64,000 bases of DNA from an uncultured Pelagibacteraceae bacterium (GTDB lineage: Bacteria > Pseudomonadota > Alphaproteobacteria > Pelagibacterales > Pelagibacteraceae): positions 62,001 to 126,000 of the forward strand of contig CACONQ010000001.1 of the NCBI GenBank assembly GCA_902628635.1, read 5' to 3'. A model generated the notes under the pieces. It was not told the DNA's origin. It was given only the letters and a program-made list of their open reading frames with translations, and did not search any database. This document shows, piece after piece, positions 7,189-63,417 of this stretch (position 1 is its first letter; the number at the start of each line of letters is the position of its first letter). Both the position numbers and the translations under genes were made by a program.

Positions 7189-7869
7189 TTATCTCGATAG
7201 CTTTTTTATGATTTTTTTCACATCTTTAAAATTTTGAAATTTTTTAGATGTAAAAAGACATGCTGAGGAATTTAAAATTACTTCAACAATTTTTAAATTA
7301 TTTTGACGTAAAGTTTCACCTGTTGAACTAAGATCAACAATGAGATCAGATTTTCCAATAATATGTGAATTTTCAGTAGCACCAAGTGATGAAATAAGTT
7401 CATATTGCGTGATGCCTTTATCATTAAACCATTCTCTACTTAGGTTTTTAAATTTTGTTGCAACTCTCATAAGTCTTTTCTTTTTTTTATAAAATTCAAA
7501 AGATATTTCCTCTAAATCTGCAGAGTTTACACAATCAATCCAAGCTGTTGGAACTGCAACCACAAGATTTGATTTTCCCCATTCAAATTCTTTTACTAAT
7601 GATACTTTAGATTGAATACTCGGTTCACTTTCACGCCATAAATCTTTTCCACTAATACCTATTGCACAAATACCTTTTCCCAGGGCTTCTATAATTTCAG
7701 TTGCATTCATGTACATCACTCGTACAGTTGGGAAACCTTTGATTGAACCAATTAATGATCTTTCTGATTTTGATATAATTTTCAGACCATTTTTTTTAAA
7801 AACTTTTTCTGCTTGATCTTTAAGTCGTCCTTTAGACAATGTAGCGATATTAATTATCTCATTTTTCAT
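7189..7869 (-). CDS. hisG: ATP phosphoribosyltransferase, short form
   Basis: ALSKGRL-like N-terminus, IVDLSSTGETLRQNNL; next to hisZ. Confidence 0.93.
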   Translation of the reverse strand: MKNEIINIATLSKGRLKDQAEKVFKKNGLKIISKSERSLIGSIKGFPTVRVMYMNATEIIEALGKGICAIGISGKDLWRESEPSIQSKVSLVKEFEWGKSNLVVAVPTAWIDCVNSADLEEISFEFYKKKKRLMRVATKFKNLSREWFNDKGITQYELISSLGATENSHIIGKSDLIVDLSSTGETLRQNNLKIVEVILNSSACLFTSKKFQNFKDVKKIIKKLSR

Positions 7870-8909
7870 AACAAGCTCATATCAATAGCTGCACCAACTG
7901 CGGTTGTATTCTTTTTGCTCCCAAGATTTTTTAACAATCCATCATAACGCCCACCTGAAATGAGTGAGAATTTTTTTCCTTTTTTATTGACTGTTATGTT
8001 AAAAACCATGCCAGAATAATACTCAAGTGAACGGTTTATATTTGAAGAAAAATTTACCTTAATTTTTCTATTGATGGTTTTAACGACTGGAAAATAATCA
8101 TCGCTTATAAATAAATTTAATTTATTTTTTTTGAAAAATTTATTAAGTGTGCTAGGTGCGTTATCTATTGAACATGAGATTTTTAAATAATTTTTAATAA
8201 TTTTTACACTTTTTTTATCTGCTATTGATCTAGGTTCTTTAAAGTTTTTTAAATCAAAACGTTCCAAAATATCTTTAAGTGCTCTACCAGAATATAAAGT
8301 GCTTGGTTTTTGTTTTCTAAATTTTTCGGCAATTTTTTTATCTTTTTCTACCTCAGCAAAATTTATATCTGTATCACTTGAAAGCTTCCCTAATAATTGA
8401 TTAAAGTAAGCTTCTCGGCAAAAGTGTCGTTTGATTCTTTCTTTCCAACGTAAAGCTAGCGATAATCTATCTATTAATGCGTTAAATATTTCAATATTGC
8501 TTATATTTAATTCACCCTTTTTAAACTTTGATTTTTTGAAAATCTCAATTGATGTTTGAATAATTTCTTTATCATCTTTAATTTTATCATTTGAGGCAAA
8601 TATCTCAAAACCAGTTTGGTTAATTATTGGTGCATTATAATTTTTATTTTGTTTGCGGTATGCTTCACCAGTGTAAAACCATTTGGTTTTAGTATTTATT
8701 TTATTCTGGATGAATTTGACAACGCTGCTAACAGATAAATCAGGAACCAAAGACCATTCTTTTTGATTTTGATCGTAAAAAGAAAAAAGGAATTGTCTGT
8801 AACTACCTCCTGATCTTTTTAAAACATATTTAGACTCAATAATATTATCAAGTTTTACATTCTTAAAACCTTTTGATCTAAGAATTTTAAACAAATTTTT
8901 TGATTTCAT
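7866..8909 (-). CDS. hisZ: ATP phosphoribosyltransferase regulatory subunit
   Basis: HisRS-like fold (FYTGEAYRKQ, LISGGRYDGLLKNLG) adjacent to short hisG. Confidence 0.88.
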   Translation of the reverse strand: MKSKNLFKILRSKGFKNVKLDNIIESKYVLKRSGGSYRQFLFSFYDQNQKEWSLVPDLSVSSVVKFIQNKINTKTKWFYTGEAYRKQNKNYNAPIINQTGFEIFASNDKIKDDKEIIQTSIEIFKKSKFKKGELNISNIEIFNALIDRLSLALRWKERIKRHFCREAYFNQLLGKLSSDTDINFAEVEKDKKIAEKFRKQKPSTLYSGRALKDILERFDLKNFKEPRSIADKKSVKIIKNYLKISCSIDNAPSTLNKFFKKNKLNLFISDDYFPVVKTINRKIKVNFSSNINRSLEYYSGMVFNITVNKKGKKFSLISGGRYDGLLKNLGSKKNTTAVGAAIDMSLL

Positions 8910-10281
8910 TAATTAAATCAGATTTTGGAATTGTTTGATTATTTTTACCTTTTTCTCCTCTAAGGTTTTTGATCGTAATTGTGTTATCTTTAAACTCATT
9001 TTCTCCACAAATGATTGCGACCGCTAATTCGCGCTTATTTGCCAGATCAAGTTGCTTACTAAGATTTTTTTTCGTACTAAGAAATACTTCAGCATTTATA
9101 TTATTATCTCTCAATAAATCGACTATTTCATAGTAATTTTTCAGATATTTTTGCTCCATTACACAGACTAAAACAGGTTTTTGATCCTCTATTTTAATTT
9201 GATCCAATTGAATTAAAGCAAATAATAATCGATCAATACCAAAACTAATGCCTGTACCAGGAACATCTACCCCTTTAAATCTTGATATTAATTTTGCATA
9301 TCCTCCCCCTGAGCAAATACTGCCTAGGTCGACACGTTTACCTTTATTATTTGTAACTTCAAAATTTAGATTTGTTTCTAAAATAAAATCTGAATAGTAT
9401 GCAAGGCCACGCACAATTGTAAAATTTGTTTTTACTTGATTTGAATTAGATCCGTAACTTATTACCTCAAATACTTCCTCGAGTTCTTTTATTCCTTCTT
9501 GTGATAATGGATTTTTTAAATTTTCTTTCAATTCATTTAAATCTTTCATTTTTAAAAAATTTAATATTTTTGCCACTTGATCATTAGTTAAATCAGCTCC
9601 TTTAGTTACAGCACCACTTTGATCTTTTCTTTCTTTTTTAAGAAGATCTTCAACTCCTTTTAAACCAAATCCAGGCTTATCTAACTTATCGATTGCTCTA
9701 ATTACTTTTAATTGTTTATCTTTTGAAATCTTTAAATCATCAATTAACCCTTGAACTATTTTTCTATTACTTACATTAATTGTAAACTGATCTTTATTAA
9801 GACCGATGTCTTTAAGAGTGGTAGATATTAAGTTACATAGTTCGGCATTTGCCTGTGCAAAATTAACATTTCCGATAATATCAAAATCCCCTTGTAAAAA
9901 TTCCCTGTAGCGTCCGTTAGAAGGCTTCTCGTTTCTAAAGACATTTTGAATTGCATATCTTTTATAAATTGAAGGCAGTTCTTGATTATATTGTGCATAA
10001 AATCTTGCTAAGGGACTTGAGAGATCATATTTTAAACTGATTCTATTATCTCGATCGTCGTAGGTAAAAATGTCAGACATAGGATTATCCTCATCCTCTG
10101 CTAAAAACGATCCAATATTTCCTGTATACTCAAAGGATGGAGTTTCTAATGGTTCAGCTCCAAACCTTATAAAATTTTTTTCAATCACTTTTATAAGCTG
10201 TTTTTTAAGAACTAGCTTCTTGCCCCAACGATCTTCAAATCCAGATGGTAAGGATGGATTGAGTTTATTTTCTTTATTCAT
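8887..10281 (-). CDS. hisS: histidyl-tRNA synthetase (alphaproteobacterial type)
   Basis: LPSGFEDR, SLKYDLSSPLARF, VFRNEKPSNGRYREFLQGDFDIIG, GTGISFGIDRLL; ATG at 10281 used because the upstream part of the ORF lies inside tRNA-His. Confidence 0.93.
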   Translation of the reverse strand: MNKENKLNPSLPSGFEDRWGKKLVLKKQLIKVIEKNFIRFGAEPLETPSFEYTGNIGSFLAEDEDNPMSDIFTYDDRDNRISLKYDLSSPLARFYAQYNQELPSIYKRYAIQNVFRNEKPSNGRYREFLQGDFDIIGNVNFAQANAELCNLISTTLKDIGLNKDQFTINVSNRKIVQGLIDDLKISKDKQLKVIRAIDKLDKPGFGLKGVEDLLKKERKDQSGAVTKGADLTNDQVAKILNFLKMKDLNELKENLKNPLSQEGIKELEEVFEVISYGSNSNQVKTNFTIVRGLAYYSDFILETNLNFEVTNNKGKRVDLGSICSGGGYAKLISRFKGVDVPGTGISFGIDRLLFALIQLDQIKIEDQKPVLVCVMEQKYLKNYYEIVDLLRDNNINAEVFLSTKKNLSKQLDLANKRELAVAIICGENEFKDNTITIKNLRGEKGKNNQTIPKSDLINEIKKFV

Positions 10282-10285
10282 GTTT

Positions 10286-10359
10286 TGGTACCTTGGGTAG
10301 GTTACGCTCCTACGACTTCGGATCCACAAACCGACGTGATACTATTTCACCACCAAGGC
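10286..10359 (-). tRNA. tRNA-His (anticodon GTG), CCA encoded
   Basis: Hand fold: acceptor GCCTTGG/CCAAGGT, A73, CCA; D-stem GTGA/TCAC; anticodon loop TTGTGGA; T-stem GTAGG/CCTAC with atypical loop AGCGTAA. Confidence 0.85.
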
Positions 10360-10371
10360 GTCCTCTTTCTT

Positions 10372-10377
10372 TTTATA
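10372..10377 (-). promoter_or_regulatory. candidate -10 element (TATAAA) upstream of tRNA-His
   Basis: TATAAA about 12 nt upstream of the tRNA 5' end; -35 not clear. Confidence 0.3.
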
Positions 10378-10404: not shown

Positions 10405-10482
10405 AATGATTAATAGCTGGCTTAGCAGCCATGTAGATTATGTCTGTGTGTTTTTTTAAAGGTGTTTATATTCTTAATCATT
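10405..10482 (-). promoter_or_regulatory. candidate leader RNA structure: 9-bp inverted repeat AATGATTAA/TTAATCATT with internal GGCT/AGCC hairpin
   Basis: 10474-10482 and 10405-10413 are perfect reverse complements; the repeat includes the mini-ORF start codon. Confidence 0.35.
10422..10481 (-). CDS. candidate 19-aa His-containing leader peptide MIKNINTFKKTHRHNLHGC
   Basis: ATG...TAA mini-ORF with three His codons in six residues, upstream of tRNA-His/hisS/hisZ/hisG; no clear Shine-Dalgarno. Confidence 0.3.
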   Translation of the reverse strand: MIKNINTFKKTHRHNLHGC

Positions 10483-10797: not shown

Positions 10798-10914
10798 ACT
10801 TATTTTACTCTTTCTTCTTATTGTTAACTTATAGCTAAATTAGCTGATGATTAACTATTAGATTTTAAAATTTATTGCAAGAGTATTATTTAAAGCAAAA
10901 TAGATGGATTAAGG

Positions 10915-10987
10915 TGGGTCCCCCTGGAAACGAACCAGGTCCTAACGCTTTTCAGGCGTTCGTGCGCACCAGCTACACCAGAGACCC
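10915..10987 (-). tRNA. tRNA-Phe (anticodon GAA)
   Basis: Cloverleaf by hand: GGGTCTC/GGGACCC, AACGC CTGAAAA GCGTT, CCTGG TTCGTTT CCAGG; CCA not encoded. Confidence 0.92.
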
Positions 10988-63325: not shown

Positions 63326-63402
63326 GCGCCTGTAGCTCAACTGGATAGAGCGCTTGGCTACGGACCAGGAGGTTCTGGGTTCGACTCCTAGCAGGCGCAC
63401 CA
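63326..63402 (+). tRNA. tRNA-Arg (anticodon ACG), CCA encoded
   Basis: GCGCCTG/CAGGCGC, CTTGG CTACGGA CCAGG, TTCGACT T-loop, A73 CCA. Confidence 0.96.
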
Positions 63403-63417
63403 ATTATTAAGGAGATT

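Follow-up and report, generated by a model that had tools for sequence, protein, structure and literature searches.

The tRNA-His/hisS junction

How is translation of hisS initiated when a tRNA gene ends almost on its start codon, and why should a bacterium keep such an arrangement? The question is raised by a 64,000-nucleotide stretch of the genome of an uncultured Pelagibacteraceae bacterium (the window as a whole), in which tRNA-His directly precedes the gene of its cognate synthetase:

10286-10359, minus strand: tRNA-His(GTG), with the CCA encoded (10288-10286); from the sequence and RF00005
10282-10285, minus strand: AAAC spacer between the tRNA-His CCA and the hisS ATG; from the sequence
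8887-10281, minus strand: hisS, histidyl-tRNA synthetase, 464 aa; TIGR00442

Read along the minus strand from 10359 to 10286, the tRNA is GCCTTGG...CCAAGGTA-CCA (the whole element being GCCTTGG...CCAAGGTACCA). Its CCA ends at 10286 and the hisS ATG stands at 10281, so that AAAC alone separates them, exactly as a previous reading of the letters alone (the sequence-only reading) had placed them. The hisS product is a histidine--tRNA ligase (TIGR00442, 328.9 bits, cut-off 286.75), and the tRNA scores 50.7 bits against the Rfam tRNA family RF00005 (cut-off 29). ARAGORN did not call tRNA-His in the window, presumably because of its non-canonical D-loop, AATAGTA (A18 G19), and T-loop, AGCGTAA (A54 G55 C56 G57 U58); given the Rfam score above cut-off, we set this verdict aside. 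At the acceptor end the tRNA has G1:U72 and A73, with no templated G-1.

The start codon at 10281 is well supported, since no second ATG was found between tRNA-His and the conserved LPxGF N-terminus of HisRS, and since an in-frame stop lies about six codons upstream of the ATG in relatives such as that of locus L032. The only purine-rich stretch close upstream of the ATG is, as also claimed, AAGG (10294-10291), which belongs to the 3' strand of the acceptor stem.

Conservation across Pelagibacteraceae

The junction was compared in a set of 97 loci, composed of 17 from the same genus (L028-L044) and 80 on named Pelagibacteraceae contigs (L122-L201), to which 50 further hisS loci from other genera of the family were added. 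The total of 147 loci in 11 genera overstates their independence, some genomes being present in two collections (L036/L178, L038/L194). In all 147 loci tRNA-His lies directly upstream of hisS, and in 144 the gap from CCA to ATG is 3-7 nt (4 nt in 99 loci, 5 nt in 36, 3 nt in four, 6 nt in four and 7 nt in one). The only exceptions are L039, L196 and L198, with 27-29 nt. This conservation excludes a chance origin: the junction is a true, family-wide feature, and the spacing, proposed earlier as a check among relatives, is held throughout the window's family. In the sister family, tRNA-His is found about 1.4 kb upstream of hisS, mostly beside tRNA-Phe, and in the sister-family genome examined an oppositely oriented transporter gene lies between the two. 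Thus, the tight junction marks the family of the window.

One same-genus locus, L040, has a tRNA-His with the T-loop ATCGTGG that reads A-TGCCA, its CCA not directly following the discriminator; the incomplete genome concerned (G017) yielded no second tRNA-His.

Transcription of the locus

On the same strand, hisD, an infA-like gene, tRNA-Phe and a csp gene lie upstream of tRNA-His, and the region around the junction contains the following additional features:

10413-10432, minus strand: terminator-like hairpin, lying between csp and the promoter region of tRNA-His; hairpin call
10372-10377, minus strand: TATAAA, a -10-like element 18 nt upstream of tRNA-His; from the sequence, position conserved in relatives
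7866-8909, minus strand: hisZ-like gene, ATP phosphoribosyltransferase regulatory subunit, overlapping hisS; 243.6 bits, below the model cut-off of 384
7189-7869, minus strand: hisG, ATP phosphoribosyltransferase, overlapping hisZ; TIGR00070, above cut-off

TATAA occurs 16-21 nt upstream of tRNA-His in 67 of the 97 loci, and a similar inverted repeat is present in relatives at the same place, between csp and the tRNA-His promoter region. A generic sigma-70 promoter scan did not call the conserved -10-like element upstream of tRNA-His. Both signals lie 5' of the tRNA, with none in the gap to hisS, where 4 nt leave no room for a terminator or a promoter. Barring a promoter inside the tRNA gene, tRNA-His and hisS would therefore share a transcript, and their arrangement indicates that they almost certainly do; the co-transcription that the sequence-only reading had entertained gains support from both the gap and the position of the signals.

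A hisS promoter within the tRNA-His gene would produce a primary transcript with a short leader, and so a near-leaderless mRNA would arise without any processing. No tool result favours such a promoter, the tRNA body falls into 11 classes (<85% identity between them) that share no -10-like element, and the conserved TATAA sits 5' of the tRNA. We regard this scenario as extremely unlikely.

Other tRNAs adjoining protein genes

In the complete genome G012 and in G000, several tRNAs are followed by a start codon after 2-9 nt. The genes that they abut, named from sequence reading rather than model search, are as follows:

tRNA-Gln(TTG), followed by cca (CCA-adding enzyme)
tRNA-Leu-CAA, followed by an acyl-CoA synthetase gene (fadD-like)
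tRNA-Leu-TAG, followed by the trigger factor gene (tig)
tRNA-Leu-TAA, followed by the gene of a NAD kinase-like protein
tRNA-Pro, followed by the gene of an NDUFS4-like protein
tRNA-Glu, followed by the gene of a GIY-YIG protein
tRNA-Gly-GCC, followed by the gene of a pterin dehydratase-like protein

The Gln/cca pair is present in 20 of 20 genomes of the genus (L012, L079, L232-L251), and in 19 of them the spacer is exactly 3 nt long, its letters varying while the length stays constant. The Leu-CAA/fadD-like pair (18/18 in the genus) has a gap of 4-9 nt and the Leu-TAG/tig pair (16/16) one of 6-11 nt. As these pairs are built like tRNA-His/hisS, the layout can be explained without invoking cognate pairing. 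With hisS and cca, two genes of tRNA biology are among those abutted.

Counting tRNAs that lie no more than 12 nt from the start of an ORF, we obtained 7/30 in G012, 11/32 in the complete genome G049 and 7/26 in G000 by ARAGORN (eight with tRNA-His, which ARAGORN misses). The corresponding values are 3/27 in the sister-family genome and 2/52 in eight other alphaproteobacteria. The difference between the family of the window (26/89) and the other alphaproteobacteria is significant (Fisher p=1.4e-4), with a control sample that favours high-scoring tRNAs, while that from the sister family is not significant alone (p=0.08). About 7-11 genes per Pelagibacteraceae genome, hisS among them, are arranged in this manner.

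Near the end of the window, tRNA-Arg(ACG) (63326-63417) is followed about 15 nt downstream by an ATG with a good Shine-Dalgarno (SD) sequence (AAGGAG), which opens a 27-codon ORF.

tRNA or operator?

In E. coli thrS, a tRNA-Thr-like leader serves as an operator bound by ThrRS. The hisS locus resembles it in having a tRNA-shaped RNA just upstream of a synthetase gene, and a tRNA-like operator bound by HisRS had been suggested for it. The complete genomes G012 and G049 have 32 tRNAs each and a single tRNA-His, the one before hisS, which indicates a real tRNA rather than an operator. No other tRNA-His was found in G000 (84% complete), and in 41 genomes searched by BLAST with a canonical tRNA-His, the loci that were checked included none outside the hisS region. 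The window tRNA-His has the cloverleaf, the GTG anticodon and the identity elements of the family. Unlike thrS, where the mimic is distinct from the functional tRNA, hisS carries the real and only tRNA-His, and non-cognate pairs share its type of junction; the operator proposal is thus not supported.

Alphaproteobacterial tRNA-His with A73 and no G-1 was reportedly described by Wang in 2007 together with a derived HisRS. G1:U72 and A73 are found at all 147 loci, in agreement with PMC3937112, which reports A73, no-G-1 tRNA-His in seven of eight SAR11 strains. The window tRNA, with A73 and no templated G-1, is alike in this respect; the passages concerned treat identity elements, not the hisS junction or the A18/G55 elbow discussed below, and the window type lacks the canonical loops.

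In another scenario, the true tRNA would itself be the operator, HisRS binding the tRNA part of the nascent transcript so as to block or expose its own start codon. The pair is cognate, G1:U72, A73 and GTG persist at all 147 loci in an otherwise variable tRNA, and the operon runs on into hisZ and hisG. However, the same elements are required for ordinary charging, a sole-copy tRNA-His cannot be a dedicated operator, and the non-cognate Gln/cca, Leu/tig and Leu/fadD-like junctions are equally tight. Since these pairs look alike, HisRS feedback is not needed, and we consider it improbable.

Translation initiation and proposed tRNA excision

Of the 147 loci, 40 have AAGG or AGGG among the 20 nt preceding hisS, and four have an SD core 4-mer. 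A ribosome-binding site in the acceptor stem, as implied by the sequence-only reading, is thus not supported as a general feature of hisS, and SD-led initiation from the 3' strand of this stem was rejected for want of a conserved SD. Genome-wide, G012 has an SD core before 12% of genes versus 5% in the background (a crude set of 250 genes), and its anti-SD at the 16S 3' end is intact. Given such weak use of SD sequences, their absence at hisS is ordinary here. Computed folding of tRNA-His with the hisS start was no better than that of shuffled sequences (z 0.14), the start region being unpaired in the fold. A literature search that covered few subscription papers returned nothing direct on leaderless or SD usage, or on tRNA-His/hisS, in Pelagibacter.

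In mitochondrial tRNA punctuation, tRNAs abut protein genes on one transcript, and their excision leaves few or no leader nucleotides. Here, too, tRNAs adjoin coding sequences on the same strand with no room for a leader, and we put forward that a similar punctuation probably operates in this streamlined bacterium, with cleavage leaving near-leaderless mRNAs that would initiate independently of SD sequences. Transcription of the cell's only tRNA-His gene would start at its own promoter and run on directly through hisS-hisZ-hisG. The tRNA, whose acceptor stem, when folded, would stand about 8 nt from the hisS AUG, would then be cut out by RNase P and, on the 3' side, by an endonuclease that is most likely RNase E, with trimming to follow. 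The freed hisS mRNA is predicted to have no more than a few A residues ahead of the AUG and to be translated without an SD, as a near-leaderless mRNA; that 3' processing would leave such an mRNA was anticipated from the sequence, and the 4-nt gap is consistent with it. An RNase E/G is encoded. Precursors of tRNAs are processed by RNase E in adjoining single-stranded regions (PMC3985628), and 70S ribosomes are able to start at an AUG at or near the mRNA 5' end (PMC9031893). As counterpoints to punctuation, a 30S subunit might initiate beside the folded tRNA without cleavage, and the three gaps of 27-29 nt show that a short gap is not absolutely required.

The layout might instead represent packing without mechanism, streamlining having removed intergenic DNA to leave a non-regulatory gap, with SD-less 30S initiation on unprocessed or partly processed RNA. 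The median intergenic length of Ca. P. ubique, 3 nt (PMC2704228), could alone put an ATG beside a tRNA, and both the weak genome-wide use of SD sequences and the presence of several unrelated genes with the same layout fit this view. Yet the hisS gap keeps to 3-7 nt across 11 genera, that of Gln/cca stays at exactly 3 nt while its letters change, and a folded acceptor stem about 8 nt from the AUG is unlike an overlap between coding sequences. Packing alone therefore appears somewhat unlikely. On the punctuation reading, we tentatively suggest, at slightly less than even confidence, that tRNA maturation is obligatory for the near-leaderless mRNAs of a defined set of genes, including hisS and cca, whose expression would be tied to tRNA processing.

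SAR11 differ from mitochondria in being free-living, in that only some of their tRNAs (roughly between a quarter and a third) are involved, in encoding the CCA and in having an intact anti-SD. E. coli also has tRNA-mRNA operons (secG-leuU, metY-nusA, thrU-tyrU-glyT-thrT-tufB), with a shared transcript processed by RNases E and P. These resemble the tRNA-His/hisS unit in placing tRNA and mRNA on one transcript, as is probable here, but generally keep ordinary spacers and SD sequences, in contrast to the 3-7 nt without a conserved SD before hisS. SAR11 are among the most abundant cells of the ocean. If punctuation holds, this fraction of the tRNAs, between a quarter and a third, would also serve as 5' leaders that protein genes shed, and translation start would be coupled to tRNA maturation, a coupling best known from mitochondria. 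Cultured SAR11 strains make it directly testable.

Evolution of tRNA-His and its elbow

The 97-locus set contains 23 different tRNA-His sequences in the 11 classes. On the HisRS tree of these loci, a quick tree with one long branch, the class changes at least 20 times, and that of the window accounts for at least six changes on the starred branches alone. Near-identical tRNA-His recur in separate lineages, and repeated exchange of tRNA-His between lineages at the same site is thus likely. An exact match of 18 nt between the T-arm of the window tRNA-His and the genome's own tRNA-Val(GAC) suggests that a conversion took place.

The G18G19 / U54 U55 C56 elbow is usual for tRNA without being defining, and its G18/U55 pair is near-universal. 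Most relatives' tRNA-His keep this elbow; that of the window does not. Replacement of the G18/U55 pair was noted at window 10286-10359 and in tRNAs of G000, G012 and G049 (L019, L024, L032, L034, L037, L060, L118, L200, L384). When 240 unique tRNAs from the loci under study were compared, 222 combined G18 G19 with U55 and 16 combined A18 G19 with G55; the remaining two look like parsing faults, leaving no true mixed elbow. As judged from these sequences, A18/G55 is a strict replacement for G18/U55. It is found in tRNA-Val(GAC), Thr(GGT) and Phe(GAA), in several distinct classes of tRNA-His, and also in another genus (g12). In the AGCGTAA T-loop, U54/A58 is likewise swapped, to A54/U58. Such a strict swap shows a near-universal tRNA elbow pair to be replaceable in bacteria. 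No paper on it was found in a literature search covering few subscription papers.

tRNA-Phe of the window (10913-10987) is highly unlike that of G012, with the T-loop TTCGTTT and an encoded CC-T in place of CCA. In several other members of the genus, tRNA-Phe is of the A18/G55 kind.
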